From Blautia sp. (GTDB lineage Bacteria; Bacillota; Clostridia; Lachnospirales; Lachnospiraceae), in NCBI GenBank assembly GCA_021772055.1, contig JAETNR010000019.1, positions 1 through 64,000 of the forward strand: a DNA stretch of 64,000 nucleotides. Reading direction: 5' to 3'. Positions 23,373 to 60,990 of the stretch are shown here, one piece after another. The notes under the pieces are model-generated. The model saw only the letters and a list, made by a program, of their open reading frames with translations, was not told the origin of the DNA and did not search any database. Made by a program: the position numbers and the translations under genes. Position 1 is the first letter of the stretch; every line of letters begins with the position of its first letter.

Positions 23373-24332
23373 ATGAATAACATTTTGAAGCGCACAGTTG
23401 CAATTATTGACGATCAGGGGATTCCTTCGTTCATGGTGAAGTTTGAGAATACCGCAAAGACCGCTGAAGAAGCTAATCGGGTTTTCTTTGTTCGGGGCCA
23501 GGAATACGACGCTTTCTATATGTCGGCATTCCCGAACGTGGTAATTAACGGACGCGCCTATTCATTGCCGCTTATGACGCCGACGACGCGCCTGACGCTT
23601 GACGAAATGATCGCGGCGTGTCGCAAGAAGGGCAAGGGCTGGCATGTGGCAACGGCCGCGGAATGGTTCCATATGGTCGAAGAAAGCCGCCAGACCGGAA
23701 CAATGCCGCACGGCAACACGAACAACGGAAAATTCTACTATGACGCGAATGAACGCGGTATTCCTGGCAATATTTACGGAACAACGCTGACCGGATCAGG
23801 CCCGGCAACCTGGCGGCATGACGGCACGTTTGACGGCGTTTCAGATACGAACGGCGACGTCTGGAAGCGGCTGACCGGAATCAGGCTGAAAAATGGTATT
23901 TTCCAGTACATACCAGATAACGACGCCGCACATCCGGAAGCCGATCTTTCCGAAGATAGCGCGGAATATAAAGACGTACAGGTCAGCGGAAAGCCTGTCA
24001 GAATCGGCATGATGGACGGGGAAGTTTGTATTACGACTGACGAAGATATTGACGGATGGGCGGTCAGTTGCCGCAAAGAGGTTATCAACCTTCTTCCGGA
24101 AACACCTGAAATTCTTCGCCGCCTGGGAATCGTGACGCCGGATCAGGAAGAATCGAACGAATGGTTAGCCGCCGACGCTGATCTTGACGAAGCAACGCCG
24201 TTTGTGCGCGCGCGCTGGAACCACACTTCCCACGCCGGTTCGTCCGCTCTGTCCTTGCACAACCCGCGGTCGCGCGTGCACACGTCCCTCGGCTTCTTCT
24301 CCGCTTTTCTGGGGGAACCTGTAATCCGGTAA
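23373..24332 (+). CDS. Second DGR variable protein, early region (C-type-lectin/FGE fold)
   Basis: The protein has 319 residues from ATG 23373 after AGAGAGGAC. The body shares family features with the tail-region variable protein: GKGWHVATAAEW, HGNTNNGKFYY and GSGPATWRHDGTFDG, the formylglycine-generating-enzyme/C-type lectin pattern of DGR targets. The last 40 residues are encoded by a variable repeat matching the template at 59.5 kb, with RWNHTSHAGSSALSLHNPRS followed by LGFFSAF. It lies 44 bases past the PAPS-reductase gene, amid early genes, far from tail genes. The ligand is unknown. Confidence 0.9.
   Translation: MNNILKRTVAIIDDQGIPSFMVKFENTAKTAEEANRVFFVRGQEYDAFYMSAFPNVVINGRAYSLPLMTPTTRLTLDEMIAACRKKGKGWHVATAAEWFHMVEESRQTGTMPHGNTNNGKFYYDANERGIPGNIYGTTLTGSGPATWRHDGTFDGVSDTNGDVWKRLTGIRLKNGIFQYIPDNDAAHPEADLSEDSAEYKDVQVSGKPVRIGMMDGEVCITTDEDIDGWAVSCRKEVINLLPETPEILRRLGIVTPDQEESNEWLAADADLDEATPFVRARWNHTSHAGSSALSLHNPRSRVHTSLGFFSAFLGEPVIR
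24197..24306 (+). repeat. DGR variable repeat 2 (remote)
   Basis: This 110-base stretch aligns without gaps to the template repeat 59502-59611. I count 14 differences: 13 at positions where the template has A and one G-to-C near the left edge. It forms the 3' end of the variable protein gene. Confidence 0.93.
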
Positions 24333-24344
24333 CTGTAATCTGAT

Positions 24345-24364
24345 TGCGCCGCGATCGCGGCGCA
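24345..24364. repeat. DGR target hairpin beside variable repeat 2
   Basis: TGCGCCGC (24345-24352), loop GATC, GCGGCGCA (24357-24364): a perfect 20-base palindrome 38 bases after the variable repeat. It is preceded by ACTGTAATCTGAT, also found before the hairpin of variable repeat 1. In the Bordetella phage DGR, such hairpins downstream of the variable repeat are needed for efficient retrohoming. Confidence 0.75.
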
Positions 24365-24380
24365 TATAAGGGGGAAGAAC

Positions 24381-24662
24381 ATGTTTGAAGGTTATGTAAT
24401 AGCCGCGGTTCGCGCGCAAATCGAACAGGACAATGCAAACGCGGTTTTGATTTCCCTGGCCGGGAAAGAGGTCGGGGAACGCCTGATCCGGATTATTGAA
24501 GGGCAACATGCAGAAAAACAACTTGCCTTCACAGAAACGACGATCGAAGCGATAAAGGCCGGTTACGATTATTCCCAGTGCAAAACAATCGACGCTATGG
24601 CGGAAGTGTACGCGCGCTATCTTATGGAAAAAGCGTTCGGGAAAAATCCGCTGAATTATTAA
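24381..24662 (+). CDS. Hypothetical early protein
   Basis: This 93-residue helical protein, ATG 24381 after GGGGGAAG, has IAAVRAQIEQDNANAVLISL and a C-terminal AEVYARYLMEKAFGKN. It follows the DGR hairpin at once. Not recognised. Confidence 0.65.
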   Translation: MFEGYVIAAVRAQIEQDNANAVLISLAGKEVGERLIRIIEGQHAEKQLAFTETTIEAIKAGYDYSQCKTIDAMAEVYARYLMEKAFGKNPLNY

Positions 24663-24682
24663 AAGAATGGGGGCAAACGAAA

Positions 24683-25195
24683 ATGTTAAAACCAACAAAT
24701 AGACGAAGCTACAAAGAAGTGTGTTCCCTTTACGAAGCCCGCGGCCTGACAGATTATCGACTTCGGACGGCGGAAGATGTAAAGGCGATACATAATTTTG
24801 ATTTAACAGATACAGAGGGCTATTCTGATCTTTCGGCTGAAAATAAGGAATTGTTCATTAAATTCATGATTTCCTTCATGAACGGCCAGGGAATGAACCT
24901 GAAAATCACAGTTTTCCCGCGTTCCGTTCATTTCGTCCGCAAGACAATATTCTTGAAGGAATGTCCGCCTGATCCGGAAGACGGGAAAATTTACAAGGAA
25001 GAAATCGGTATGAAGTTTATGATTCTGAAGGCAAACGGCAGAACGAAGGTATTATCACGCGCCGGTTATTTTGACAAAGACAAGACACAGGCAGACGTCA
25101 CACATACACGCGACGAAGAATTCCTTCGGGTTGATCTGTTTATGGGCGGTAGTAAAACATGGTTTCATGTTTTGGCCCCGGATCGGTATTTCTAG
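24683..25195 (+). CDS. Hypothetical early protein
   Basis: This 170-residue protein starts at ATG 24683 after GGGGGC. The first 60 residues are helical (RRSYKEVCSLYEARGLTDYR), the rest mixed alpha/beta with FMNGQGMNLKITVFPRSVHF. No family recognised. Confidence 0.65.
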   Translation: MLKPTNRRSYKEVCSLYEARGLTDYRLRTAEDVKAIHNFDLTDTEGYSDLSAENKELFIKFMISFMNGQGMNLKITVFPRSVHFVRKTIFLKECPPDPEDGKIYKEEIGMKFMILKANGRTKVLSRAGYFDKDKTQADVTHTRDEEFLRVDLFMGGSKTWFHVLAPDRYF

Positions 25196-25207
25196 GGGGG
25201 TGTGAAA

Positions 25208-25378
25208 ATGAAAAAAATAAGAAATCCTGACATTAACGCATTGAAAGAATCACTGAAAGCATACGGGATTCAGACGGCGGATCAGCTTGATAAAGCGTTG
25301 TATGAATCCCTGGATAAACTGGAAGTCGGCATTATGACGGAACGCCTGTCAATACCGGCCCCGGAAAAGACAGCATAA
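25208..25378 (+). CDS. Small helical protein
   Basis: The 56-residue frame has a GGGGGTG site before ATG 25208. It contains NALKESLKAYGIQTADQLDKAL, resembling small phage proteins of the DUF6774 type, but I am not sure. The stop is TAA 25376-25378. Confidence 0.55.
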   Translation: MKKIRNPDINALKESLKAYGIQTADQLDKALYESLDKLEVGIMTERLSIPAPEKTA

Positions 25379-25380
25379 AA

Positions 25381-25479
25381 GGGATAGCGCACGATCGGGA
25401 AATCAGCCGCTATCCCCTGGATGGCTCCGCGATAATAGCAAAGCCTTTAATAATTTTAGACAAAATCATTGATTTTGTC
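25381..25479. promoter_or_regulatory. Hairpin and operator-like palindrome before the partition module
   Basis: GGGATAGCG (25381-25389) pairs with CGCTATCCC (25408-25416). Further on, GACAAAATCA (25459-25468) and TGATTTTGTC (25470-25479) form a perfect palindrome around one base. The same TGATTTTGTC half-site recurs at 34648-34657, and a 9-of-10 match (AACAAAATCA) lies in the repressor operators at 19309. This suggests control by the same repressor. Confidence 0.5.
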
Positions 25480-25491
25480 AATAGGGGGCTT

Positions 25492-25734
25492 ATGCGCGAA
25501 TTTAAAGAGCAACGCAAGACGTATAGTGACGGTATCACATATATTATTGATCCGTTTTGGCTAGGCAAATGTCGGAAATGCGGTCATGAATACCTGTCAT
25601 GTATATGCACTGGAACATGTCCGAAGTGTGGAAACGATAATATTGAATACACACTCGGCGGAAGGAGCCTTGAAGAAATTATCGCGGAAAGAAGACCTGA
25701 TTTAATCAGAGATAATCAGAGTAAATCCGAATAA
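25492..25734 (+). CDS. Zinc-ribbon protein
   Basis: This 80-residue protein has paired knuckles CRKCGHEY, then CICTGTCPKCGNDN, typical of a zinc ribbon. GGGGGC precedes ATG 25492. Its last codons run into the iteron array. Function unknown. Confidence 0.65.
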   Translation: MREFKEQRKTYSDGITYIIDPFWLGKCRKCGHEYLSCICTGTCPKCGNDNIEYTLGGRSLEEIIAERRPDLIRDNQSKSE

Positions 25735-25780
25735 ATCAGAGTTAATCAGAGTTAATCAGAATATATCAGAGTAAATCAGA
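25701..25780 (+). repeat. Eight 10-bp iterons, candidate tubC centromere
   Basis: Eight consecutive 10-bp units with consensus GTTAATCAGA fill 25701-25780 in perfect register, for example 25741-25750 and 25751-25760. A 10-bp period puts every unit on one face of the helix. The array precedes a winged-helix gene and a TubZ-like gene, the order of tubC-tubR-tubZ in type III partition systems. The centromere role is inferred. Confidence 0.75.
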
Positions 25781-25800
25781 GAAGAAGAAAGGGTGATACA

Positions 25801-26058
25801 GTGAATAGGCTCGGCTTCATAGTTCTTTCGATTCTTCGCCAGAACGGGGCGAACAACCGTCTATCAGCTATGGCGGTTAGCGAAATAGTGGATGAAGAAG
25901 AATTTGTATATAAAGACAACACAATTTATAAAAAAATCAAAGAATTTGAAACGGCTGGGCTTGTGGCGCAAGGATTGAAGGAAGGCCGCGCGGCGACGTT
26001 CTACATCACAGAAAAAGGCGTTCAAATTCTGGAAGGGGAAAAGAATGCTGAAACATAA
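25801..26058 (+). CDS. Winged-helix DNA-binding protein, TubR candidate
   Basis: This 85-residue protein starts with GTG/ATG-type initiation at 25801 after AAAGGGTG. The whole is one winged helix: LGFIVLSILRQNGANNRLSAM, KKIKEFETAGLVAQGL, then ATFYITEKGVQIL (wing). The size fits TubR, which binds iterons and links them to TubZ filaments. The position between the iteron array and a TubZ-like gene supports this. A PadR/MarR-like regulator is the alternative. Confidence 0.6.
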   Translation: MNRLGFIVLSILRQNGANNRLSAMAVSEIVDEEEFVYKDNTIYKKIKEFETAGLVAQGLKEGRAATFYITEKGVQILEGEKNAET

Positions 26059-26545
26059 ATTATTTTTTAAAAGTCTGATTTTGGTTTCCTGGATCATGAC
26101 CGCCGCACTTGTGGTTGTTGCCGTGATCCAGGCGGGAAAAATTAACGCGTTACAGGCAAAAATCATTGATCCGTATGAGGGACAGCAATTCGCGACGATT
26201 CAGTACACGGACAATTACGCGGGGGAACTGATAACCGTCCAGGGAGTGTTGAACTTTGAAGCGCCGCTTCAGCCGCCCGGAGATTGGCTGTATGAATTTA
26301 ACGGTGTGGAAGCCGTCCTGACCGGTGCGCGCGTGATCGGAGACAAACGCGTTCCATATGGCACAAACGGAAACGTGACGATTTATCTTGCGGATGGCGG
26401 CTCCGTGTCGTTTTACGGAACGGTTGTCAAGCCGCTTGAAAATGATGATAACTTAGTTTTTTACATGGTCGATTCGGAAATTACAGACCGTGAAAACATC
26501 CTGAAGGATTATTTTGACGAAGGGAGAACAGAAAATGAAGAATAA
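26045..26545 (+). CDS. Membrane-anchored protein inside the partition module
   Basis: The protein has 166 residues. One N-terminal helix (residues 8-32, LILVSWIMTAALVVVAVIQA) would anchor it, with a beta-rich outer or periplasm-side domain of about 120 residues, including TVQGVLNFEAPLQPPGDWLYEF. It overlaps the winged-helix gene by 14 bases and the TubZ-like gene by 11, so all three are coupled. No family recognised. Known tubRZ operons do not have such a gene between tubR and tubZ. Confidence 0.7.
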   Translation: MLKHKLFFKSLILVSWIMTAALVVVAVIQAGKINALQAKIIDPYEGQQFATIQYTDNYAGELITVQGVLNFEAPLQPPGDWLYEFNGVEAVLTGARVIGDKRVPYGTNGNVTIYLADGGSVSFYGTVVKPLENDDNLVFYMVDSEITDRENILKDYFDEGRTENEE

Positions 26546-27581
26546 GATCGCTTTTGTAGCAGTAGGCCAGGCCGGGGGAAATATCGGTCGCCTGTTTGAA
26601 GAAAAGGGTTATACAGTTATTTATATTAACACGTCACAGGAAGACCTTGATACGCTGACCGCGGCAAAATATAAGTATCACATTCCGGACGGCGAAGGTT
26701 GTAATAAAGACCGCCACAAGGCGAAACAGCTTGTTGTTGATGATTTTGACCGGATTGCGGCCGAAATTGATTCAAAGATTACGCAGAAAATGATCTTTGT
26801 GATTTTTGCCGCTGGCGGCGGAACCGGATCAGGGGCCGGGCCAATGCTGATTGATCTTCTGACCGATGAAGACAAAACGGTTGGCGCGATCACAATTATT
26901 CCGGCAAAAACAGAAAGTGTAAAATCGCATATTAATGCTTACGAATGCTTCAGCGAATTAGTCGAAATCGACGCAACCGCGGCTTGTTTCATTCTCGATA
27001 ATGACCGGGGCGAAAAAATGAAATTGAATCCCGCTTTCGTTGACGCTTTTTGTTCATTCCTGGAAATTCCAGAAAAATGCAAGAGTGAAGAAGGGAATAT
27101 TGACAAAGCAGAAATCGAAGAAACGCTGAAAGCGCACGGAATGGCCGTTGTTCTTCGCAAAAAGGCTGATAATTCCGCGAAAGTAATTGACGCCCTGAAG
27201 GACAATATTTTCGCCCCGATTGAATCCGATCAGGCCGTCAAATATATCACGGCCGCGCTCCCAGCAAAGATTGCTATGACGGACATCCAGAAGGCCGCTG
27301 GCGTTCCGATCGACACATTCCAGACAGTTTCAAAGGACGACGCGGCGATCTGCCTTTCGGGGTTGTCATATCCAACGACGCGGCTTGAAACGGTGTACAA
27401 GCGTGTTGATGATAGCCGGGAAACAATTATTAAAAATCTGTCAGCCACAAAGGAAACAAGCCTGAAAAAAGGTGTGAATTTCCTTGACGAAATATCAGGC
27501 GGCCGGAAATCTTCCAAACAGCCGGAACCGCCGAAACGTCCAAAAGCGCGGCGCGACATTATGAGCAAATATTTAAACTAG
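26535..27581 (+). CDS. tubZ: TubZ/FtsZ-like GTPase
   Basis: The protein has 348 residues from ATG 26535 after GAAGGGAGA. The N-terminus AFVAVGQAGGNIGRLF is the tubulin-superfamily first loop. The GTP signature GGGTGSG is at residues 94-100 (FAAGGGTGSGAGPML). The C-terminus is disordered and basic (PKRPKARRDIMSKYLN), as in TubZ tails that bind TubR-DNA. TubZ polymers push plasmids and phage-plasmids (such as C. botulinum c-st) to daughter cells. PhuZ-type phage tubulins are an alternative, but iterons and a TubR-like neighbour favour partition. Confidence 0.82.
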   Translation: MKNKIAFVAVGQAGGNIGRLFEEKGYTVIYINTSQEDLDTLTAAKYKYHIPDGEGCNKDRHKAKQLVVDDFDRIAAEIDSKITQKMIFVIFAAGGGTGSGAGPMLIDLLTDEDKTVGAITIIPAKTESVKSHINAYECFSELVEIDATAACFILDNDRGEKMKLNPAFVDAFCSFLEIPEKCKSEEGNIDKAEIEETLKAHGMAVVLRKKADNSAKVIDALKDNIFAPIESDQAVKYITAALPAKIAMTDIQKAAGVPIDTFQTVSKDDAAICLSGLSYPTTRLETVYKRVDDSRETIIKNLSATKETSLKKGVNFLDEISGGRKSSKQPEPPKRPKARRDIMSKYLN

Positions 27582-27592
27582 GGGTAATGAAA

Positions 27593-28606
27593 ATGGCTGA
27601 TATAACTTGGATCAAACTTCGGATTGACATGTTCGATGATGAAAAAATAAAGCTGATTCAGGCCCTTCCGGATGGTGACACGATCCTTGTTATCTGGATT
27701 AGAATTCTTGCACTGGCCGGGAAGTGCAATGCAAACGGCTACTTGTGCATTGAGGATGAATTCCCGTATTCTGACGAAATGCTTGCAACGATTTTTAATA
27801 AATCCTTGCCGCAAGTTCGCCTTGCGTTGGAAACGTTCAGCCGGTTCGGCATGATCGAAAAGACGCAAAAGGGAATTTATATTTCAAATTTCACAAAACA
27901 TCAAAATGCTGACGGAATGGAGCGAATCAGGGAACAAAACCGGCTTCGGAAGCAACGCCAGCGCGAACGACAAAATCAAATAAAGGCACAGGAACAACTT
28001 CTTCTTTCGGACATGTCGCGTGACGTGTCACGTGACAGTCACGAAGAAATCACGGGAAGTCACGCAACAGAGATAGAAGAAGATAAAGAAAAAGATATAG
28101 ATAATAATATATTAAATTCTAGCGAATTTAATATTAGTCAAAATCCTGAAAAAACGGACGATCAGACGCCGGATCAGCCGGAGCCGCAGAAACGGACGTC
28201 GATTGACTGGAAACAGATTCAATCAGACTATTCCGCGATATGTGTTGATCTTCCGGGAATCCGGGGGCTGACAGAAGGCCGGAAAACGAAAATACGGACA
28301 TTGTTGAAAGAATTTAAGGCCCTGAAAATTATGGACGGAATGACGCCGGAAGAAATACTGAACCGCCTTTTCCGCATGGTACAGGATAGCGATTTTCTTA
28401 CCGGCCGCAATGGAAAATGGGCCGCGTGTACGTTTGACTGGATTATCAACAAAACAAATGCGATCAAGATTGTCGAGGGAAATTATAAAAACAAAGGGGG
28501 CGGGAATAGTGATCCAGACAGAAACGTTAGAACAGAAAGTCAGACGAATAGCAGAACAGCAGAAAACGAAGCCCTTGAACGGTTCCGCCGGAATAAACGA
28601 TTATAG
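27593..28606 (+). CDS. Phage replication initiator (replisome organizer N-domain)
   Basis: This is a 337-residue protein. Residues 1-115 match the phage replisome-organizer N-terminal domain: ITWIKLRIDMFDDEKIKLIQ, then DEMLATIFNKSLPQVRLALE. A basic, glutamine-rich linker follows, then a DnaD-like C-terminal part (LEALFR-type helices). ATG 27593 is preferred over 27587 because the AGGGG site is then properly spaced. It probably recognises the phage origin and recruits the loader encoded next; the two overlap by about 100 bases. Confidence 0.85.
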   Translation: MADITWIKLRIDMFDDEKIKLIQALPDGDTILVIWIRILALAGKCNANGYLCIEDEFPYSDEMLATIFNKSLPQVRLALETFSRFGMIEKTQKGIYISNFTKHQNADGMERIREQNRLRKQRQRERQNQIKAQEQLLLSDMSRDVSRDSHEEITGSHATEIEEDKEKDIDNNILNSSEFNISQNPEKTDDQTPDQPEPQKRTSIDWKQIQSDYSAICVDLPGIRGLTEGRKTKIRTLLKEFKALKIMDGMTPEEILNRLFRMVQDSDFLTGRNGKWAACTFDWIINKTNAIKIVEGNYKNKGGGNSDPDRNVRTESQTNSRTAENEALERFRRNKRL

Positions 28607-29342
28607 CTGTCCGTTATGTCATGACAGCGGTTGGATCATGGAAATGCGCGGGAATTACGAAGTCGCAGTTCCTTGCAAATGCGGGATCAGGGAAAAGCAA
28701 ATCCTTGAAAGCAAACTGTCATTCGCCACAATCCCGAAAGAATTTAAAGGCCACACCGTTGAAAATTTCCGGACAGACTGTTATTCGTCGCCGGAAGCCG
28801 CGGAACTGGCAGAAATGGCGAAAGCGATCGCCGGGAATTACGTGATCCAGTTTAAAGAGATTCAGGAAACCGGGAAAGGATTGTATTTTTATTCCGCGGT
28901 TAAGGGTTCCGGAAAAACGCGGCTTGCAGTTTCAATCGCAAATGATATTATCTGCAAATACTTTGTTTCAGCGAAATTCGCGACCACGCTTCAGATTTTG
29001 GACGAAATCAAAAGCAGTTGGAAGGCAAACGGCGGCGAGACAGAACAAAAGCTGATTCAGGATATTATTCGCGTTCCCGTCCTGGTTATCGACGATATAG
29101 GCGTCGAACAGAGCAAAGGCTGGATTGAAGAACGGTTTTACAATATCCTGAATGGCCGCATGATCCAGAAAAAAATAACGATTTTTACAAGTAATTGCGC
29201 GATTGAGGATTTAGGGCTTGACGATCGCATTGTAAACAGAATTCAGAAAATGGCGTTGCCGGTATCATTCCCGAATGAATCCGTCCGCGCGACGCTGGCC
29301 CGTCAGGAGAACAGCGAACTTCTGGCGCGCTTACTTGGATAA
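28509..29342 (+). CDS. DnaC-like helicase loader
   Basis: A 277-residue AAA+ protein. A zinc knuckle near residues 33-62 (CPLCHDSGW and VPCKCG) is followed by Walker A in AVKGSGKTRLA and Walker B in VLVIDDIGVEQ. FTSNCAIEDL and the arginine-rich sensor region DDRIVNRI fit DnaC/DnaI loaders. The start GTG 28509 follows AAAGGGGGC. It overlaps the initiator gene in another frame, a common phage arrangement. Confidence 0.9.
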   Translation: MIQTETLEQKVRRIAEQQKTKPLNGSAGINDYSCPLCHDSGWIMEMRGNYEVAVPCKCGIREKQILESKLSFATIPKEFKGHTVENFRTDCYSSPEAAELAEMAKAIAGNYVIQFKEIQETGKGLYFYSAVKGSGKTRLAVSIANDIICKYFVSAKFATTLQILDEIKSSWKANGGETEQKLIQDIIRVPVLVIDDIGVEQSKGWIEERFYNILNGRMIQKKITIFTSNCAIEDLGLDDRIVNRIQKMALPVSFPNESVRATLARQENSELLARLLG

Positions 29343-29366
29343 TTTGAGAGAAGGAAAGGTGAACAA

Positions 29367-30468: not shown

Positions 30469-30469
30469 C

Positions 30470-30637
30470 ATGGAATTTAAGCCTGGAAAAGATAAATATT
30501 TCGTTCTGGTGGAAGGCGACGAAAAGGCTTCTATCCGCGACACGCCTGAAGCGGCCGAAAAGAAACGTCAAAAACTGGCGAAATACAGCAAGGGTAAAAA
30601 GGTTATCATTTACAAATCAGCAGAAAGGAACGGTTAA
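30470..30637 (+). CDS. Small basic protein
   Basis: The 55-residue frame from ATG 30470 after GGGGGT has YFVLVEGDEKASIRDTPEAA and a lysine-rich end. It directly precedes ssb. Not recognised. Confidence 0.55.
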   Translation: MEFKPGKDKYFVLVEGDEKASIRDTPEAAEKKRQKLAKYSKGKKVIIYKSAERNG

Positions 30638-30639
30638 GT

Positions 30640-31311: not shown

Positions 31312-31934
31312 TGTATGGAGATAGCACACAATTAACGGCGCGCCGCATGTTCCAGGAAAGCGAAAGCGCAAGAATCAGAGAATTTACAGAAATAGCCGGT
31401 GACATGATTCCGAATAATTTAATCACAGCACTGATTGACCGCGGATTCTTTACGGCTCCGGCTGGTATGAAACATCATGGAAATTTTGAAGGCGGCCTTT
31501 ACTGGCATAGTAAAAACGTTGCTGACCTTCTGGGAGATTACACAAAACGCCTTGATCTGGAATGGCAGAACGGGCGAAGTCCGTTTGTGATCGGATTCCT
31601 TCACGATGTTTGCAAAATGGACTATTACAAAAAGACATACACGCGTGAAATGACAGATTATTCCATCATTGAGGGAAGCGGAACCGATCTGAAATTTTAT
31701 AATTACGAATGGAACGACGAACAGTTCATTCCGGGACATGCTGACAAATCATTAATCTTTATCGGCCAGTACATGAATTTGACAGACGAAGAAGTCGCTT
31801 GCATTCGCTGGCATATGGGAGCCTTCGACGATCGGAACAACTGGAAGTATTACAACGAAGCCGTGTCGCGGTGGCCGAATATTCTTTACACGCATACTGC
31901 CGATATGATGGCGGCGAAGGTGTGGGAAAGATAA
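31311..31934 (+). CDS. HD-domain phosphohydrolase
   Basis: The protein has 207 residues. The HD metal ligands are visible: GLYWHSKNV (His), GFLHDVCKM (His-Asp), PGHADKSLIF and RWHMGAF (His), and a late HTADMMA aspartate. Family members hydrolyse nucleotides or phosphoesters. In this early operon, nucleotide-pool control is plausible but the substrate cannot be read. Confidence 0.8.
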   Translation: MYGDSTQLTARRMFQESESARIREFTEIAGDMIPNNLITALIDRGFFTAPAGMKHHGNFEGGLYWHSKNVADLLGDYTKRLDLEWQNGRSPFVIGFLHDVCKMDYYKKTYTREMTDYSIIEGSGTDLKFYNYEWNDEQFIPGHADKSLIFIGQYMNLTDEEVACIRWHMGAFDDRNNWKYYNEAVSRWPNILYTHTADMMAAKVWER

Positions 31935-31960
31935 AATTCAAAGTCGAAAGGAGCGGAAAT

Positions 31961-32188
31961 ATGAAGACACAGGACGAAAGAATTGAAAGATTCATGGAGC
32001 TTATGAACGCGGCACTTCAGGAAACCGGGATCACGTGCGCCACGGAAGAAGGGGAACCGCTTACGCTTTTTGACGCGTTCCAGGAAGAACCGATATTTCT
32101 TGAGATCACGCGCGGCACAGACACACATATTCAGGACGGCCGTGTCGTCAGCCGGGAAGTATTTGACACTGGCGACATAAATGAATGA
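31961..32188 (+). CDS. Small acidic hypothetical protein
   Basis: This 75-residue protein is preceded by GAAAGGAGCGG. It contains RIERFMELMNAALQETG followed by acidic strands. It overlaps the start of the radical-SAM gene by eight bases. Not recognised. Confidence 0.55.
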   Translation: MKTQDERIERFMELMNAALQETGITCATEEGEPLTLFDAFQEEPIFLEITRGTDTHIQDGRVVSREVFDTGDINE

Positions 32189-33236
32189 TGGGAAAAGTCG
32201 TGATCGGGAGAATAACCAGGCCGAAACGCCGGAAGAAGCCGTTTTGCGCCGGTTTTGGGAAAGCAGACAAATGACGGTTTATGATTACAAGGAACTGATC
32301 CCGGAAGGAATGAAAAAGCGGATCGCACTAATTGACGTTGACGGACATAATTTTCCGAATTTGCCGTTGATGAAATTATCTGCCTGGCATAAACGCCGCG
32401 GCGATTCCGTGGAATGGTACGATCCGCTTTTTCACAACGAAGCCTATTCAAAACCATTCGATATTGTTTACATGAGTAAAGTATTTACCTTCACGCCTGA
32501 TTTTCAATATCCGGTAAATGCGGATGTAATTATAAAGGGCGGAACCGGTTATTCCTATCCCGATGGCGGCGATCCGCTTCCAGAAGAAATTGAACACATA
32601 TATCCCGATTATTCGCTGTACGGGATAACAGATACAGCATACGGATTTTTGACGAGAGGTTGTCCGCGGAACTGTGAATTCTGCATAGTTGGAAAGAAAG
32701 AAGGTCTAAAAAGCTATAAAGTCGCGAATTTGTCGGAATTCTGGCGCGGTCAGAAGAATATTATGATTTGCGATCCGAACCTGATCGCATGTCCTGATTG
32801 GAAAGACCTGATTCAACAGCTTATTGACAGCAAAGCGAAGGTAAATATAAATCAGGGAATCGACATTCGTATTATGACCGAAGAAAAGGCTGAAATGATT
32901 AAGAAAATGCGCGTTGACAGCGTTCATTTTGCCTGGGATAGATACGAGGACAAAAAGCGGATCGTTCCAAAATTCAAAGCATTCAAGGAAATCACGGGAT
33001 GGCCCGCCAGAAAAACAAGCGTCTATGTGCTGACTAACTTCAACACAACGATCGAACAAGACCTTGAACGGATATATACGCTTCGTGATCTTGACTATGA
33101 TCCGTATGTGATGATTTATGATAAAGAAAAGACAAAAAGGGACGATCCTGTCAGGAAACTTCAAAGGTGGGTGAATAACAGAAAAATATTCAAAACAATC
33201 CCGAAATTTGAAGACTATGATTCAAAAATGGGATAA
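32181..33236 (+). CDS. Phage radical SAM protein
   Basis: The protein has 351 residues. The cluster motif is GCPRNCEFC (CxxxCxxC) near residue 160, followed by KNIMICDPNLIACPDWKDL. The N-terminal 140 residues are B12-binding-like in layout (IALIDVDGHNFPNLPLMKLS, KVFTFTPDF). Such radical SAM genes recur in Firmicutes phages; the reaction is unknown, with nucleotide or base modification a guess. No partner gene is evident beyond the PAPS-reductase-like gene 9 kb upstream. Confidence 0.82.
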   Translation: MNDGKSRDRENNQAETPEEAVLRRFWESRQMTVYDYKELIPEGMKKRIALIDVDGHNFPNLPLMKLSAWHKRRGDSVEWYDPLFHNEAYSKPFDIVYMSKVFTFTPDFQYPVNADVIIKGGTGYSYPDGGDPLPEEIEHIYPDYSLYGITDTAYGFLTRGCPRNCEFCIVGKKEGLKSYKVANLSEFWRGQKNIMICDPNLIACPDWKDLIQQLIDSKAKVNINQGIDIRIMTEEKAEMIKKMRVDSVHFAWDRYEDKKRIVPKFKAFKEITGWPARKTSVYVLTNFNTTIEQDLERIYTLRDLDYDPYVMIYDKEKTKRDDPVRKLQRWVNNRKIFKTIPKFEDYDSKMG

Positions 33237-53627: not shown

Positions 53628-53638
53628 GGGGCGATTCC

Positions 53639-54028: not shown

Positions 54029-54040
54029 GGCGGTGATAAT

Positions 54041-54352: not shown

Positions 54353-55505
54353 TATTCAACAACTTTATGATATCCCGGATATTTCTTTCATTGACGGTAT
54401 AACAGTTGATTCCATTATCAGCGAAATGATCGCAGATTATGAAAAGAAATACGAAGAACTGACAAAAAAGGAAATCACACTTCGCCCGGCCGACAAAGAC
54501 ACAATCCTTATGAATATTTACGCCGGAAAGTTTTATCAGCTTTATGAAAGACTGGATTTCTCCGCTAAAATGAATCTTCTGAAATATTCCAGAGGTGATT
54601 TCCTGAAGCACTTGGGGGCTATGAAGAAAACGTTTCTGAACGAGCCAAAAAGTGCGGTCACAATCGCGCGGTTTCACCTGGAAGAAGTCCGGCCAGACCT
54701 GGTATATATTCCGGCCGGAACACGGATCACCGCGGACGCCGCGGACGGAATTTACTTTGCGACGGATAACTACGCGGAAATTCCGCCAGGCACAAAAACG
54801 GTTGATATATCCTGTACGTGCGAAACACAGGGAGAAATCGGAAACGGCTACATAGAAGGACAGCTTGACATTATCGTTGATCCGATCCCGTATGTGTCCG
54901 GCGTCGAGAACATCACGAAGACTGAAGGCGGGGCCGGAGAGGAAACGGACGACGAATTCCGGGAACGAATCTTTCTTGCACCGTCCTCATTTTCAACGGC
55001 TGGCCCGGCCGACGCTTATGAATATTGGGTTCGCCAGTATAACAGCGCGGCTATTGAGGATGTAAAAATCTACGAGCCGACAGACGCTATTGTTGACGTG
55101 CGCGTTCTCCTGAAGGGCGGTGAATTACCGTCCGCCGCGTATTGCGAAAAGGTGAAGGAATATCTTCTTCAAAATCCGGTTGTTCCGCTTACTGATAACA
55201 GCATAGTCGCCGCGCCGGATGTTGTGAAATACAATCTGAAGGCGACATATTATATCAGCCGCCGCCACACGAACAACCTTGAAACAATAAAGGCCGCGAT
55301 CGAGGAAGCGAAAGACGAATATCTTCTTTACCAGCGTTCCGGAATTGGCCGCGACCTGAATCCGGATGTACTGATCGAATTTGTCAGGGCGGCCGGTGGG
55401 AAACGCGTTGTTATCGAATCCCCGCCCTTCCAGGTGGTACGGGAAACTTCCGTCGCGCAAGAAAACAATGTCGAATTTGTGTTCGGCGGGTTAGAAGATG
55501 ATTAG
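54339..55505 (+). CDS. Baseplate J-like protein
   Basis: The 388-residue protein has YIPAGTRITADAADGIYFAT and GGAGEETDDEFRERIFLAPS, the signature of baseplate J. It forms the wedge core and overlaps gene I by eight bases. Confidence 0.93.
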   Translation: MAIIDIQQLYDIPDISFIDGITVDSIISEMIADYEKKYEELTKKEITLRPADKDTILMNIYAGKFYQLYERLDFSAKMNLLKYSRGDFLKHLGAMKKTFLNEPKSAVTIARFHLEEVRPDLVYIPAGTRITADAADGIYFATDNYAEIPPGTKTVDISCTCETQGEIGNGYIEGQLDIIVDPIPYVSGVENITKTEGGAGEETDDEFRERIFLAPSSFSTAGPADAYEYWVRQYNSAAIEDVKIYEPTDAIVDVRVLLKGGELPSAAYCEKVKEYLLQNPVVPLTDNSIVAAPDVVKYNLKATYYISRRHTNNLETIKAAIEEAKDEYLLYQRSGIGRDLNPDVLIEFVRAAGGKRVVIESPPFQVVRETSVAQENNVEFVFGGLEDD

Positions 55506-56514
55506 TTTATATGACAGTGTAACATACAATCATATTCCGGCAGAAATGAAAACGCCGGAATATGCCGCGTTTTGTTACGCAGTAGATAACCAGGTCAAGA
55601 AGGCTTTTATCAGGACGCGGCGGGCGCACATATGGGCGAACCTGGAAGACGTCGCGGACGAACATCTTGACTTGCTTGCGGTCGAATGCCGCGTTTTATT
55701 TTACAATTCTGATCTTTCCCCGGAAATCAAGCGGAAATTGATTCTGAATTCTATGTACTGGTACATGAAGTTAGGTACAAGCCAGGCTATGCGGGAAATG
55801 ATCGACATTGTTTTTGAAAACTACAATACAACCGTGGAAGAATGGCACACATACGGCGGGGAACCATTTCATTTCATGGTGGCCGTGGATTCAAATGTCA
55901 CGCAAATTTCTATTTCTGAATTCTTGCGATATCTGAACACGGTTAAAAATGCACGTTCCCGGTTCGACTACCTGATTCTTCAGAATAGCGCGGTGATCCG
56001 CCTGACGACGTATTCAGATTTTTATAATTTCTTTTATACATTTTGTGGCGACTTGGAGTGCGGAACATATCCGGACACAAACACGGCCCTTCGGATTGCG
56101 GAAAGCGCAGTCCTTTTTACGCCGGACGGAAACACCGGATCGGCGGCTTACGATGAATCCGGAACAATCCCGGATATTGCAATCGGTTTTGAGATAAAAG
56201 AAAATACCGTCGCTATGAGCGGCGACGCGGATCAGCTTGGAACCGTATATTCTGGGAACGAAACGGAATCCGGAACAAATCCGGATATTGCGGTCGGCTC
56301 CGTTGCCGCTGGCGCGGAAATCGGCCTTGAAGGATCAGGCGGCGAAATGCCGGTTGTATATCCTTCTGACAGTGAAGCAGAATCCGGAACCTATCCGGCC
56401 CCGACGACGGGGTTCGCTTCGGCGGAAAGCGGCGTGGAAACCGAAGCCGGAAGGTCTGAATCTGACTTATATTACAATCAGGCCAGTGAAATAGATTTCG
56501 CTGGCGACGAATGA
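55498..56514 (+). CDS. Tail protein I-like with C-terminal repeats
   Basis: The 338-residue protein has a gpI domain (residues 1-190; HLDLLAVECRVLFYNSDLSP, LGTSQAMREMIDIVFENYNT). Beyond residue 185 there are four degenerate repeats of 33-38 residues keyed by CGTYPDT, SGTIPDI, SGTNPDI and SGTYPAP, a strand-rich extension not present in P2 I. It may attach side fibres. Confidence 0.88.
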   Translation: MISLYDSVTYNHIPAEMKTPEYAAFCYAVDNQVKKAFIRTRRAHIWANLEDVADEHLDLLAVECRVLFYNSDLSPEIKRKLILNSMYWYMKLGTSQAMREMIDIVFENYNTTVEEWHTYGGEPFHFMVAVDSNVTQISISEFLRYLNTVKNARSRFDYLILQNSAVIRLTTYSDFYNFFYTFCGDLECGTYPDTNTALRIAESAVLFTPDGNTGSAAYDESGTIPDIAIGFEIKENTVAMSGDADQLGTVYSGNETESGTNPDIAVGSVAAGAEIGLEGSGGEMPVVYPSDSEAESGTYPAPTTGFASAESGVETEAGRSESDLYYNQASEIDFAGDE

Positions 56515-56527
56515 AAGGAGTGAAAGC

Positions 56528-56893
56528 ATGGCGAACACGTGGAAACTATCCGATCAGTTACTTTCGGATATAAAGGAATACTTGCAAAACAAGGTTTCTT
56601 ATGCGCGTTTCAAAAGCGGATCGACATGGACGAAAATCAAGATTTACCAGACGTCAATTTTGACAGACGGGCGCGTCGGAATTTATCTTCTTTTCGATCA
56701 TGAAGCCCCGGATCAGATATCACAAATCGAATTTTACGACACAGCCGGAAAACTTTTTGCTTCCGGAACGGAAAACATCAATAAAGAATCTTTCGATGAA
56801 GGCGTTCTTTTCCGGTTTTCAATCCGGGTTGAACAGGCGTTTTCCCCGGAAGCGTCCACAAGGTCGCTTTCTTCCGGCATTTACGACGATTAA
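56528..56893 (+). CDS. Hypothetical baseplate/fibre-region protein
   Basis: This 121-residue protein starts at ATG 56528 after GAAAGGAG. LLSDIKEYLQNKVSYARFKSG and RFSIRVEQAFSPE are typical of proteins following gene I in Clostridia prophages. Not otherwise recognised. Confidence 0.65.
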   Translation: MANTWKLSDQLLSDIKEYLQNKVSYARFKSGSTWTKIKIYQTSILTDGRVGIYLLFDHEAPDQISQIEFYDTAGKLFASGTENINKESFDEGVLFRFSIRVEQAFSPEASTRSLSSGIYDD

Positions 56894-56911
56894 CAGAAGG
56901 GAAGTGAAATT

Positions 56912-57403
56912 ATGTATATTCCGGTATTTTGGAAAGACAGAATTGTTCAGTTTCCGCGACGGGTTTCCGTGAAGGATGTTGGAAACGGCCTGAAAGAATG
57001 GACGCCAGCACCAGGAGAAATTGAACGGCACGGCACGGCGCAGAGTGAACGTAATTTCGGGAAAATGGATTTTGGCGTTCTGGAAAATGCGCTTCTTGTT
57101 GCACATTGCATGGAAGGGCTTCGGATTGCGGCAGACCAGGCCAAAGACAACAGCGGCCAGTTTTTCGATGTTACATTGAAAAATACGTTCCGCTATCCGG
57201 CGTCAAACGCTGAACAGACCGTCACACTTCCACATGTCCTGAACAACCTTGACTATGAAGTTCATACGGAAGTTAAGTCACAGGACGGCTATATTGACCG
57301 TATAGAGGTTTACGGAAAAGCCCTGAACGCTTTTAAGGTCAAATATTTCGGAAGCGCGAAACAGGTGAAATTGCGGCTTCATGTGGTAGGGGGTATGTTC
57401 TGA
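56912..57403 (+). CDS. Hypothetical tail-fibre-region protein
   Basis: The 163-residue protein starts MYIPVFWKDRIVQFPRRVSV. The middle has QAKDNSGQFFDVTLKNTFRY, a beta-rich pattern, and the end is strand-rich. Perhaps a receptor-binding accessory. Its last base overlaps the next gene. Confidence 0.65.
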   Translation: MYIPVFWKDRIVQFPRRVSVKDVGNGLKEWTPAPGEIERHGTAQSERNFGKMDFGVLENALLVAHCMEGLRIAADQAKDNSGQFFDVTLKNTFRYPASNAEQTVTLPHVLNNLDYEVHTEVKSQDGYIDRIEVYGKALNAFKVKYFGSAKQVKLRLHVVGGMF

Positions 57404-57573
57404 TGGCAAATATTATTATCAAATCTGACGACAGAAGACGCCAGGAAGCGGCAATGTTGCGGGCATTCGGCGGCGGTGATCCCCGGAATGGCGCAAAAGT
57501 CAACCGGGAATATGCGGAAGAAATCAACGCAAGAATGAACGACGTTAAAAGAAAGGTGGGAATGAGGACATGA
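57403..57573 (+). CDS. Small basic protein
   Basis: The 56-residue frame starts in an overlapping TGATG and has IIIKSDDRRRQEAAMLRAFG and EEINARMNDVKRKVG. It shares four bases with the next gene. Not recognised. Confidence 0.6.
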   Translation: MANIIIKSDDRRRQEAAMLRAFGGGDPRNGAKVNREYAEEINARMNDVKRKVGMRT

Positions 57574-57929
57574 AAATTATTGAAAAGGACGAAGGGCAGA
57601 AGATTTCCTTTTCTGAAATCGGAAATTGGTTAAACATTGGCGATCAGCTTATGTTCAACCTTGAAAAGATGGAAGACGACGCCGCGGTTCACATCGACGT
57701 GATGGGGAGCGCAAACGGCAAACTTCGCGAAAGCGACGGCGTTTATTATGTCGCACAGATCGACATTCCGCCGCGGGCCTATACGGAAGAAGAAATTGAC
57801 AATCCGGATTATAGCCCGGAAACGGACGGATCACAGAAGAAAATAATCAAGCGCGATCCGGTTCCGTTCGACATGAAAAATGTAACGCTGACACTGTTTG
57901 CATTGAAAGAAGGTGTATTCGATGAATAA
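57570..57929 (+). CDS. Hypothetical protein before the DGR target
   Basis: The 119-residue protein has SEIGNWLNIGDQLMFNLEKM and DNPDYSPETDG. Its end overlaps the variable protein start by eight bases, so it may be a chaperone or partner for it. Not recognised. Confidence 0.65.
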   Translation: MKIIEKDEGQKISFSEIGNWLNIGDQLMFNLEKMEDDAAVHIDVMGSANGKLRESDGVYYVAQIDIPPRAYTEEEIDNPDYSPETDGSQKKIIKRDPVPFDMKNVTLTLFALKEGVFDE

Positions 57930-58971
57930 TTATAATTTTGACGCGCTGAAATTTGCGGTCGAAGGTATTTCGGGCGGCGCAAATACGGTTATCATGGATA
58001 ATGTCGATCTTCCGTCCTTCATGGTTCCCGTGTATAAACGCACGAACTCACAGCTTTTCACAGGCGGATCAGAACACACACATCCGGCTTTTATCGTGGA
58101 TGAAGCAGAATATAGTGTATTCTATTTCAGCCAGTTTATAAATTGCGTTGTAGATGGCCGCGCGTATTCCTGGCCGTTGGTTGATCCGGCCGCGTCACTG
58201 AACTACGATACCGCGCACAATTACTGCAATAAAAAGGGCGCGGGCTGGCACCTGGGAAGTATTCCTGAATGGGCGGTTATTAATCACCTGATCCGGAAAT
58301 CAGGATTTGAGCCACACGGAAACACTAACTTCGGGAAGGCGTATCAGCACGACCACGAAACGGGCGCGATCACATATTCCTACACAGAAGAAGGCGTAAA
58401 AAAGAACGGACGCACAGCGACCGGATCAGGCCCGGCAACCTGGCGACATGATGGCACGTTCGCCGGTATTGCCGATTGGGTTGGCGACGTCTGGAAATGG
58501 ATGTCCGGAATGCGGATCGTAAACGGCGAAATTCAGGTATTTGTCGGCAATCTGGCCGCAAAGCAGACGGCGCACGGAAACTCAAGCACATTCTGGAAAG
58601 CAATTCTTCCGAACGGAAGCCTTGTCGCACCTGGAACGGCCGGAACGCTGAAATACACAAAGGCAATGAAAATCGGAACAAGTACGGGAGAAGTCGGAAC
58701 AAATTCAATGTCGAATTTTGGAAATGTTGTTGCAGAAACCGGCGTTACAATTCCGGAATTGCTTTACGCTCTGAATCTGGCTCCGGTTCCGGCCGACAAA
58801 GACAAATACAAGGGCGGCTTCTGGATAAACAACGACGGTGAACGCTTGCCGTTTGTGGGCGCGAGCTGGAGCAACACTTCCCGCGCCGGTTCGTCCGCTC
58901 TGAACTTGAACTACCCGCGGTCGCACGTGCACCCGCTCATCGGCTTCTTCTCCGCTTTTATGGAGTTGTAA
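57922..58971 (+). CDS. DGR variable protein 1 (tail receptor-binding candidate)
   Basis: The protein has 349 residues from ATG 57922 after AAGGTG. It has GWHLGSIPEWAVI, HGNTNFGKAYQHD, GSGPATWRHDGTFAGIADW and GDVWKWMSG, the C-type lectin/FGE fold of DGR targets. The last 42 residues come from the variable repeat (ASWSNTSRAGSSALNLNYPR then IGFFSAF). Placement at the end of the tail operon and upstream of avd and the reverse transcriptase fits a host receptor-binding tip, as Mtd in Bordetella phage BPP-1. Confidence 0.95.
   Translation: MNNYNFDALKFAVEGISGGANTVIMDNVDLPSFMVPVYKRTNSQLFTGGSEHTHPAFIVDEAEYSVFYFSQFINCVVDGRAYSWPLVDPAASLNYDTAHNYCNKKGAGWHLGSIPEWAVINHLIRKSGFEPHGNTNFGKAYQHDHETGAITYSYTEEGVKKNGRTATGSGPATWRHDGTFAGIADWVGDVWKWMSGMRIVNGEIQVFVGNLAAKQTAHGNSSTFWKAILPNGSLVAPGTAGTLKYTKAMKIGTSTGEVGTNSMSNFGNVVAETGVTIPELLYALNLAPVPADKDKYKGGFWINNDGERLPFVGASWSNTSRAGSSALNLNYPRSHVHPLIGFFSAFMEL
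58842..58957 (+). repeat. DGR variable repeat 1
   Basis: This 116-base stretch aligns gap-free to the template repeat 59496-59611. I count 10 differences, all at template A (A to C, G or T). It ends 11 bases before the stop codon. Confidence 0.96.
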
Positions 58972-58999
58972 TCTGTAATCTGAAACACTGTAATCTGAT

Positions 59000-59019
59000 G
59001 GGGCCGCGAGAGCGGCCCC
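59000..59019. repeat. DGR target hairpin beside variable repeat 1
   Basis: GGGGCCGC (59000-59007), loop GAGA, GCGGCCCC (59012-59019). An 8-bp GC-rich stem with a GRNA-type loop, 42 bases after the variable repeat, matches the retrohoming hairpin described for BPP-1. ACTGTAATCTGAT precedes it, as at variable repeat 2. It could also act as a terminator, but no T-tract follows. Confidence 0.75.
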
Positions 59020-59039
59020 TATTACTGAAAGGCTAGAAA

Positions 59040-59471
59040 ATGGAAAGCAAAAACAGATATAACCGGAAATACGGACAAAAGCTGACGCCGGATCAGGAAA
59101 CACAGGAATCTAAAGAGCAAAGAAAGGGCCTTATAATCCTACAAAGGACGAAAGACCTTGCAAAATATCTTTATATTTCTTTTGTAAAATATCCGAAATA
59201 TGAAAAGATGGGCTTCGTGACTGACTACAAGAAGACCTTGTTTCAGTTTTTGGCCCTGATTATCGCGGCGCAGAAGAAATATTATAAAAAGACAACCTTA
59301 CAGGACGCCGACGTTCAGCTTGAATTATTGCGGCTTTTCAATGATCTATCCTACGATCTGCAATTTATAGACGAAAAGCGTTATTTGCTGGTTGCAAACA
59401 TGACAAACGAGATAGGACGGCTTCTCGGCGGCTGGATTCAATCTCAAAAAGATACCAGCAAAACGGGATAA
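59040..59471 (+). CDS. avd: Accessory variability determinant (Avd)
   Basis: The 143-residue helical, basic protein has IILQRTKDLAKYLYISFVKY, then FQFLALIIAAQKKYYKKTTL and MTNEIGRLLGGWIQSQ. This four-helix pattern matches Avd/bAvd of DGRs, a pentameric partner that binds the reverse transcriptase and template RNA. It is just upstream of the template repeat. Confidence 0.92.
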   Translation: MESKNRYNRKYGQKLTPDQETQESKEQRKGLIILQRTKDLAKYLYISFVKYPKYEKMGFVTDYKKTLFQFLALIIAAQKKYYKKTTLQDADVQLELLRLFNDLSYDLQFIDEKRYLLVANMTNEIGRLLGGWIQSQKDTSKTG

Positions 59472-59495
59472 ATCCCGTTCAGGGAATAGGTCATT

Positions 59496-59611
59496 ACGCT
59501 TGCCGATTGTGGGCGCGAGCTGGAACAACACTTCCAACGCCGGTTCGTCCGCTCTGAACTTGAACAACCCGCGGTCGAACGTGAACACGAACATCGGCTT
59601 CTTCTCCGCTT
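59496..59611 (+). ncRNA. DGR template repeat (TR)
   Basis: This 116-base non-coding copy matches both variable repeats. It has repeated AAC codons in the matching frame (WNNTSNAGSSALNLNNPRSN), the common DGR design giving maximal adenine-based variety. It would be transcribed as part of the DGR RNA and reverse transcribed with adenine-specific errors. Confidence 0.95.
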
Positions 59612-59844
59612 ACCCTTTTATCGAGAATGCGTCGTCTACGGCCGCCGCACAGTGAAAGCAAAGGGAAAGGGGCTTATTTCCTCAACCGGCTACGGCCGGA
59701 GAAAATTAAACAATCCGGATTCTGTCCGGGGAAAACTAATTTGTCCGGCTATACAGCTAGTAGCAAGTCGAACGGTGTACCGGTCGGACGCCGCGCGGCG
59801 GTCGAAAGTCGCCGCGCAATCCTTTCTGAAAGGAATATATCAGT
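59612..59844 (+). ncRNA. Spacer of the DGR RNA between TR and reverse transcriptase
   Basis: I see no convincing gene here; short frames overlap it but look incidental. The stretch has several GC-rich complementary segments (for example GTCGGACGCCGCGCGG, then GTCGCCGCGC). In BPP-1 the sequence just downstream of TR is a structured RNA needed to prime cDNA synthesis; the same role is inferred here. Confidence 0.55.
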
Positions 59845-60990
59845 ATGCCAAAAACATTCAATATCACGCATGAAGAAATTATCAGTCAGGAAAATTTACT
59901 GATTGCGAATAAGAACGCCAGCGATTGCAAGAGGTTTCGCGACGAAATCTTAGCATTCCAGGCGCACCGACAAGAAAACATAATCAGCCTTCACAACGAC
60001 CTGACCTATTACCCGGAAGGCGGGGAGCCTGGCGGCGAATTATATTCAAATTACAAGGTCGGCAAATACCGCATGAAAAAAATATTTGAGCCAAAGCCGC
60101 GGATCATTATGGCCCTTCCGTATCGCGATCGCGTTGTTCAGTGGGCTTTTTATCAAAAATTAAGCCCGCTATTCGATAAGACGTTCATTGAACATTCTTA
60201 CGCTTGCCGCGAAGGAAAAGGCGCGGATCGTGCGCGAAAAGTGTTGCAAAAGTGGCTTCGCAAAGTCAACCGGAGCGGTGGGAAATGGTACGTTCTGAAG
60301 TTGGATATATCAAAATACTTTTATCGCGTGGATCATGAAATTCTCATGAAAATCCTTTCGCGCCGGATCAAGGACGAATTGATCCTGAAAGACCTTTATA
60401 ACCTGATAAATTGCGAAGACATGGCGTTCGGGCTTCCGTCCGGCGTTCAGCCTGAATTATGCGACCGCGAAGAATGGATTTTCAATAAAGGAATGCCGAT
60501 CGGGAACCTGACATCACAGATGTTTGCGAATATCTATCTAAACGAACTGGATCAGTATTGCAAACACGAACTGAAGGTTCATTATCTGATCCGTTACGCC
60601 GACGATATAATTATTCTTTTTCAGGGGAAAAAGGAAACGGAAGGATTGAAAGATCAGATCGAAATATTCCTGAATGAAGAATTGCGCCTTGATCTGAATG
60701 ACAAAACAACGATCCGCCCGGCCTGGCTTCCAGTGGAATTTGTCGGCGCGATCATTTCGCCGCTTTTTATCAAAATGCGGAAAAGCACACAAAAGCGCAT
60801 GAAGGCGCGAATGCGGTTCATTAAAAAGTTGTATGAAGCCGGGCTTATAACCTGGCAAAAAGTAGATAGCACTATGCAAAGTTATTTCGGGCTGATCCGC
60901 GGCTTTACGGCCGGGAACCTTCTTCGGAAGATATTGGACGAATTTGTTTTTGTTATCAACAATGCAAAGCGGGGAAAGCCCCGCTTTTAA
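59845..60990 (+). CDS. DGR reverse transcriptase
   Basis: The 381-residue protein, ATG 59845 after GAAAGGAA, has the catalytic YADD at residues 251-254 (LIRYADDIII), the DGR-type motif IGNLTSQ at 219-225 in place of QGxxSP, and motifs LKLDISKYFYRVDHE and RIIMALPYRDRVVQWAFY. It copies the template RNA with errors at adenines. Size and position after TR are standard for DGRs. Confidence 0.97.
   Translation: MPKTFNITHEEIISQENLLIANKNASDCKRFRDEILAFQAHRQENIISLHNDLTYYPEGGEPGGELYSNYKVGKYRMKKIFEPKPRIIMALPYRDRVVQWAFYQKLSPLFDKTFIEHSYACREGKGADRARKVLQKWLRKVNRSGGKWYVLKLDISKYFYRVDHEILMKILSRRIKDELILKDLYNLINCEDMAFGLPSGVQPELCDREEWIFNKGMPIGNLTSQMFANIYLNELDQYCKHELKVHYLIRYADDIIILFQGKKETEGLKDQIEIFLNEELRLDLNDKTTIRPAWLPVEFVGAIISPLFIKMRKSTQKRMKARMRFIKKLYEAGLITWQKVDSTMQSYFGLIRGFTAGNLLRKILDEFVFVINNAKRGKPRF

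Follow-up and report, generated by a model that had tools for sequence, protein, structure and literature searches.

A remote second target of a diversity-generating retroelement in a Blautia prophage: a probable early, non-virion paralogue of the tail-side target

Why would a temperate phage keep a gene far from its tail operon hypervariable? The question is raised by a 64,000-nucleotide stretch of Blautia sp. DNA (contig JAETNR010000019.1, positions 1 to 64,000; the whole stretch is called the window here), which carries a diversity-generating retroelement (DGR) with one template repeat (TR) and two variable repeats (VR1 and VR2). VR1 lies in T1, the gene that closes the tail operon, and VR2 lies in T2, a gene of the early region. 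In BPP-1, whose DGR is the best studied among phages, the single target is a tail protein. We consider it probable that the DGR in the window diversifies two anciently separated paralogues, the tail-side T1 and an early, non-virion T2. If an early non-tail paralogue is indeed kept hypervariable in many Clostridia prophages, targeted hypermutation would be aimed at something met after entry.

Judged from its genes, the prophage in the window holds a complete DGR with Avd, TR and reverse transcriptase (RT) (Table 1). The YADD and GNLTSQ stretches of the RT are presumably DGR-type RT motifs, and the matches of this protein to group II intron and antiviral RT models were far under the cut-offs of those models. 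Both VRs aligned to TR without gaps, and recomputation reproduced the adenine-confined differences claimed in an earlier reading of the DNA (the sequence-only reading); the one non-adenine difference of VR2 is a G to C change. The probability of such a concentration at adenines by chance was 2.4e-8 for VR1 and 5.5e-10 for VR2 (hypergeometric, 110 shared columns, 23 adenines). When the host genome was searched with TR using BLAST, nothing was found besides TR, VR1 and VR2, which agrees with the earlier claim of one DGR with two targets. VR2 and VR1 are 34.5 kb apart and T2 is flanked by early genes in the window, so the placement of the second target in the early region stands.

Both a T1-like and a T2-like gene were found in 31 genomes or records (sets); T2-like matches lacking a located T1 partner were left out. 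The T2 repeat matches the TR of its own genome in 29 of the 31 sets. In 27 of them the matching repeat is at the end of T2, with TR beside T1, and in two (Faecalibacterium phage Lagaffe and G490) it is internal to T2 and shows 11 and 13 adenine differences, respectively, and zero others. For G483 and G473, TR was not found within the stretch fetched. When the VR2s of 26 sets were pooled (G038a was excluded for a one-base shift), changes were observed at 330 of 649 template adenines and at 23 of 2248 other template bases. The phage's own TR gave the fewest non-adenine mismatches for 25 of the 26 VR2s, and for G462 it tied with that of a close relative. The poorest fits were those of G462 and G486 (five non-adenine differences each, in G486 at the 3' end of the match) and Dulem virus 37 (four). 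TRs of different phages have diverged at non-adenine columns (up to 29 differing columns with adenine in neither), and rewriting of VR2 must therefore have taken place since the phages separated. In the excluded set G038a (L040, G038:C2, about 70220-70330, minus strand), VR2 has one extra base relative to TR and the last T2 residues are in another frame.

VR1 and VR2 appear to vary independently of each other. Both were changed at 190 template adenines and carried the same base at 74 of these (39 %), compared with about 36 % from base counts. In one pair of T2 genes with 95.6 % identity (G472 and G473), 13 of the 22 template adenines differ, as do 3 of the 88 remaining VR2 positions and 32 of the 985 outside VR2; the template was taken from G472, as none was found for G473. 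A pattern scan of IMG/VR for near-identical repeats gave one contig, L005, which carries TR and VR1 without T2 and is 98.3 % identical to the window phage. Its TR is identical and its VR1 is different (12 differences from TR, all at adenines, and 17 from the window VR1). Identical VR2s, non-adenine drift or a frozen VR2, which the sequence-only reading had named as the signs of a dead copy, were not the pattern found among the relatives. These comparisons argue strongly for two live targets served by one DGR.

Outside the VR, the T2 scaffold is under purifying selection. When the window was compared with its closest full relative (G015, Blautia schinkii DSM 10518), the nonsynonymous (dN) and synonymous (dS) divergences were 0.083 and 0.606 for T2 (273 codons, dN/dS about 0.14) and 0.126 and 0.986 for T1 (308 codons). 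The residues at the variable codons also pass through a filter. At template AAY codons, Cys was observed 4 times in T2 (21.2 expected) and 4 times in T1 (17.0 expected), Ser was observed 56 times in T2 (33.0 expected) and Tyr was raised only marginally (p 0.05 to 0.06), the expectations being taken from position-specific base use and the codons being pooled over phages and not fully independent.

The 3' flanks of the two VRs were compared as well. In BPP-1 a hairpin at this place affects homing efficiency, its loop sequence matters, and transfer of the initiation of mutagenic homing (IMH) sequence plus hairpin sufficed to target another gene (PMC3240598). When 27 sets were scanned for a tetraloop on a stem of at least 6 pairs within 100 nt, such hairpins were found after VR1 in 22, after VR2 in 22 and after TR in 5, and in 7 of 1620 shuffles. 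A GRNA loop was present in 21 (VR1), 19 (VR2) and 1 (TR) of the 27 sets and in none of the 1620 shuffles. The spacer in front of the hairpin is often common to VR1 and VR2 of one phage (in the window, ACTGTAATCTGAT). The VR2 flank of the window folds only mildly better than shuffles, and its loop is GATC in the window and B. schinkii alike.

T1 and T2 share 38 % identity. The solved protein TaqVP (PDB 5vf4) matches both by sequence homology, in support of the common formylglycine-generating enzyme (FGE)/C-type-lectin scaffold that had been proposed for them. Open reading frame (ORF) finding extends T2 back to 23313, and the start at 23373 agrees with the B. schinkii homologue. T1 follows the baseplate genes, and its role in the virion tail is read from position and homology. 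A [N/D]FD motif was found within the N-terminal 25 residues in 26 of 31 T1 proteins and within the N-terminal 60 in none of the 31 T2 proteins. T2 N-termini are short or bear varied extensions, three of which gave no Pfam match stronger than E 0.067. No T2 (0/31) had a 19-residue Kyte-Doolittle window above 1.6, and the top T1 value was 1.93 (a hydropathy measure only, not a signal-peptide test); T2 is thus predicted to be without an evident membrane stretch.

When a tree was drawn from the 62 proteins with the VR cut (289 columns; columns filled in fewer than 60 % of rows dropped; internal VR of the Lagaffe and G490 T2 retained), the 31 T1 and 31 T2 sequences fell on opposite sides of one branch (100/99), which was present in 200 of 200 bootstrap trees. 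T1 and T2 had been labelled by position beside TR in 29 sets and by likeness to the window T2 in G483 and G473. A single old duplication would be the simplest reading of this split and not the only one, because the root is not fixed and the T2 of Lagaffe, G490, G502 and G479 are on the T1 side of a midpoint drawing.

Measured from start to start, T2 lies upstream of T1 by 29 to 37 kb in 17 sets (window included) and downstream by 10 to 25 kb in another 8; the two genes are closer together in 2 (G478 and G502) and on separate contigs in 4. A gene matching an early reference set was observed within 5 kb of T2 in 22 of the 31 sets, a count that omits the window's own genes as these belong to the reference set. 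A gene matching only the structural reference set was observed within this distance in 3 (Lagaffe, G474_C20 and G478). Upstream of T2 (1.3 to 5.5 kb scanned), 14 promoter-like sites of at least 11/12 were found in 12 of 31 sets, compared with 1 in one shuffle of each. No conserved partner gene of T2 was found across the 31 neighbourhoods; the cluster directly downstream (C10) occurs in 5 of them (window included). The 3'-phosphoadenosine 5'-phosphosulfate (PAPS)-reductase-like gene, which the sequence-only reading had placed next to T2, was considered as a partner and rejected, as its cluster (C9) was seen in 5 of the 31 neighbourhoods, counting the window, and had no fixed place in them. It is probably an incidental neighbour, because it is not beside T2 in the closest relative, B. 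schinkii.

The prophage in the window probably has its left end near 14982 and reaches the window end or beyond. Position 14982 is the first matching base of the strain contig L093 (JAETOO010000012.1), which is 99.98 % identical to the window over 14982-24206 and stops 10 bases into VR2. Since the match starts there and the L093 sequence before it differs, 14982 is likely the left prophage end. T2 sits 4 kb downstream of a consensus promoter (19357-19385) that is divergent from a CI-like repressor gene. This promoter is the sole perfect consensus in the window (0.05 expected; one present in 5 of 100 shuffles), and no terminator-like site was found on the plus strand from it to the end of T2 (consensus scan only). 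The genes then run rightward in the order HNH endonuclease, PAPS-reductase-like, T2, TubZ-like, and DnaD- and DnaC-like replication genes, followed by late genes, baseplate genes, T1, Avd, TR, RT and an amidase/glucosaminidase gene. From this layout we infer that T2 is expressed early. No Rfam match was found in the window at gathering thresholds. The HNH endonuclease gene, two genes upstream of T2, has 85 % identity in B. schinkii, and the TubZ/PhuZ-like cluster is also near T2 in 5 other sets.

Table 1 Features of the window that bear on the two-target DGR
Feature	Position	Strand	Evidence
Large serine recombinase (prophage integrase)	15882..17870	-	Pfam Resolvase, Recombinase and Zn_ribbon_recom above cut-offs
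CI-like helix-turn-helix (HTH) repressor gene	18720..19289	-	Pfam HTH_3 2.5e-13 above cut-off; Phage_CI_repr 8.6e-4 below its cut-off
11/12 promoter-like site facing repressor gene	19306-19278	-	Consensus scan
Consensus sigma-70 promoter TTGACA-17-TATAAT, likely early promoter of rightward operon	19357..19385	+	Consensus scan
HNH endonuclease gene	21672-22235		HNH_3 just above cut-off, NUMOD4 below
T2, remote DGR target protein, early region	23373..24332	+	phrog_2889 1.9e-72; TaqVP 5vf4 1.3e-29
VR2	24197..24306	+	13/14 differences from TR at adenines
Hairpin 3' of VR2, 8 bp stem, loop GATC (outside GRNA)	24345..24364	+	Fold z -1.76 over whole 81-base stretch
TubZ/PhuZ-like tubulin gene, early region	26514-27581		Tubulin 2.7e-17, TubZ_C_3 2.9e-14
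T1, tail-operon DGR target protein	57913..58971	+	phrog_2889 2.3e-105; TaqVP 5vf4 1.6e-56
VR1	58842..58957	+	10/10 differences from TR at adenines
Hairpin 3' of VR1, 8 bp stem, loop GAGA (fits GRNA)	59000..59019	+	Fold z -4.42
avd	59040..59471	+	bAvd 6.3e-20 (Pfam), DivGenRetAVD 4e-26 (NCBIfam), both above cut-off
TR	59496..59611	+	Alignment to VR1/VR2; BLAST
DGR reverse transcriptase	59845..60990	+	RVT_1 4.2e-23 above cut-off; phrog_1423 2.1e-114; YADD and GNLTSQ

A T2 profile run against genome contigs matched 45 loci, some of them T1-like. Hosts were mostly Lachnospiraceae, Oscillospiraceae and other Clostridia, with further loci in Gemmiger, Desulfosporosinus, Phascolarctobacterium and one metagenome-assembled genome labelled Izemoplasmatales. 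In the genus sample 6 of 64 genomes matched, one of them (G044) with a weak fragment. Six prophages with T1 and TR are spread over the remaining five genomes; T2 was found in five of these prophages, and G025 showed T1 without T2. Among the relatives, G024 is Blautia sp. MSJ-19. Of the 397 genomes in the family sample, 11 matched, including that of the window. In the phage collection the T2 protein matched 51 records at 54 places, and the two-place records were three (two Lagaffe records and one of Dulem virus 37). The genome of Clostridiaceae bacterium 1XD21-29 (G481; contigs C272, C208 and C108) carries three separate dual-target DGR prophages, and two adjacent T2-like matches were seen on one contig elsewhere (G092:C88, 158-2445).

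We propose that T1 would serve as the tail-side receptor binder, encoded at the tail operon end, and that T2 would be encoded in the early operon, near the repressor. Reverse transcription of TR RNA would introduce errors at adenines, and the resulting cDNA would home to VR1 or, 35 kb off, to VR2, which may be addressed by the common VR sequence together with its own ACTG-containing spacer and hairpin. T2 is likely early and non-virion. As a cytoplasmic binder, it could use its variable face to track a changing partner in the infected cell, and host defence, a host regulator or a competing phage would be candidates. A fast-changing factor inside the infected cell is our preferred guess for this partner. 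More tentatively, T2 might represent an old and widespread family of early-made, intracellular, DGR-diversified binders, a phage-encoded, antibody-like arm against defence proteins, host regulators or rival phages that parted long ago from the tail receptor binder and is still rewritten by the one template. Should a non-tail paralogue prove to be kept hypervariable in this way, the binding partners of remote DGR targets could be sought in the isolate B. schinkii DSM 10518 and in Lagaffe, which is known to release virions (PMC5883640).

Several observations weigh against the model proposed above. A replication, SSB or repressor cluster was found within 5 kb of T2 in only 15 of 31 sets, and all such neighbour tests used small in-house reference sets from few phages with cluster names given partly by eye. 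The early position is not universal: in G478, T2 is upstream of T1 by 3.5 kb and close to structural-like genes, T1 and T2 of G502 are 6 kb apart, and in Dulem virus 37 T2 is between the lysis genes and the integrase. No promoter-like site of at least 11/12 was found upstream of T2 in 19 of 31 sets, B. schinkii included. The GATC loop at the window VR2 departs from the GRNA form that mattered in BPP-1 (PMC3240598). Furthermore, T2 is built on the scaffold of known receptor binders, and T1 and T2 showed no detectable difference in the composition of their variable residues (chi-square p 0.35), so that the two would fit a similar job.

It may be, then, that T2 is a second virion receptor binder encoded off the tail operon and that the phage has two independently diversified tropism determinants. 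The common scaffold, the TaqVP homology and the similar variable residues favour this explanation, and the Lagaffe authors propose a doubled host-range effect of two Mtd-like targets (PMC11792537). We consider it rather unlikely, as T2 lacks the N-terminal motif of T1, forms a separate tree branch and lies among early genes in the window and many relatives. Action of T2 in lysogen immunity, by binding the variable tail tips of related phages or masking a receptor, is a more doubtful proposal. In principle, competitors could be followed by a hypervariable lectin that is a paralogue of the phage's own tail binder, and most sets are prophages or prophage-like. However, the lack of a strongly hydrophobic stretch in all 31 T2 proteins makes a surface location unlikely, and T2 of the window is downstream of a presumed repressed promoter. 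For the same reason, the suggestion in the sequence-only reading that the remote target is host-expressed in lysogeny found no support, since T2 follows an apparently repressor-controlled early promoter.

That VR2 is a relic or dead copy from a past duplication of the tail gene is very improbable. One non-adenine difference in the window VR2 and the altered frame in G038a would fit such a copy, but VR2 follows its own diverging TR, the scaffold outside it has a low dN/dS and the residues at its variable codons are filtered; we excluded this reading on the tracking of TR by VR2 and on the one near-identical pair. Hardly credible is a metabolic FGE-like enzyme, as T2 is annotated. Phage records name the protein SUMF1/EgtB/PvdO or formylglycine-generating enzyme, and a Clostridium clostridioforme survey places phrog_2889 genes under host metabolism (PMC11318856). 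However, T2 had no Pfam match up to E 0.1 and no NCBIfam match, and T1 did not reach the cut-off of the Pfam FGE family (E 0.02; 15.0 bits, cut-off 23.3). The nearest solved protein is a DGR variable protein and the C-terminus is hypervariable; the enzyme reading was rejected on the family scores. Where records and this one survey file genes of the family as an iron enzyme or under host metabolism, the annotation could be corrected.

A remote second target is not unprecedented, as might have been thought from the sequence-only reading: Quimbyvirus (2021, PMC8008677) and the second repeat of Lagaffe (2024, PMC11792537) came before. As remote, probably non-structural DGR targets have been published, the idea itself is no novelty. 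What appears to be new is the old, widespread family of early targets, no account of such a clade having been found among open-licence PMC papers. According to one large DGR survey, remote targets would go unseen on the short contigs that it used (PMC8144416). The C. clostridioforme prophage LM41phi3 has two phrog_2889 genes, ORF 13 and ORF 71, the latter near Avd and RT (PMC11318856). Both are filed there as formylglycine-generating sulfatase enzyme under host metabolism, and they are likely misannotated DGR targets.

The window DGR resembles that of BPP-1 (Mtd) in TR, Avd, RT, a C-type-lectin tail target and, at VR1, a GC-rich GRNA-loop hairpin 3' of the repeat (PMC3240598). It differs in the second target 35 kb away in the early region, with its GATC hairpin loop. 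TaqVP, the FGE-subtype C-type-lectin variable protein of a Thermus aquaticus prophage DGR, is a homologue of T1 and T2, and the available text of its source describes one variable protein (PMC6328139). The gut phages nd4 and nd12 also have two targets on one TR; in contrast to T1 and T2, these are dissimilar in sequence, and one is a tentaclin with immunoglobulin (Ig)-like domains (PMC10743442). Quimbyvirus, a group of Bacteroidetes phages, has a remote and probably non-structural DGR target (PMC8008677), to which T2 is likened by arrangement and not by sequence comparison. In Quimbyvirus, however, the remote gene belongs to a defence-related island and is encoded on the opposite strand, and the RT is in three frames.

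Lagaffe (NC_047911.1) is a distant phage with two related targets. Its T1 (21487-22584) adjoins Avd and RT, and its T2 (31798-33060), in which the VR is internal, is between an IS30-type transposase and exonuclease, Gam, ERF and SSB genes. One target was described in the available text of the first study (PMC5883640). Two variable regions, both in Mtd-like targets, were later reported for Lagaffe_CP, with nucleotide variation at both across 18 cognate genomes and no variation signal in lysogen-culture reads; the early location of T2 is not taken up in the available parts of that paper (PMC11792537).

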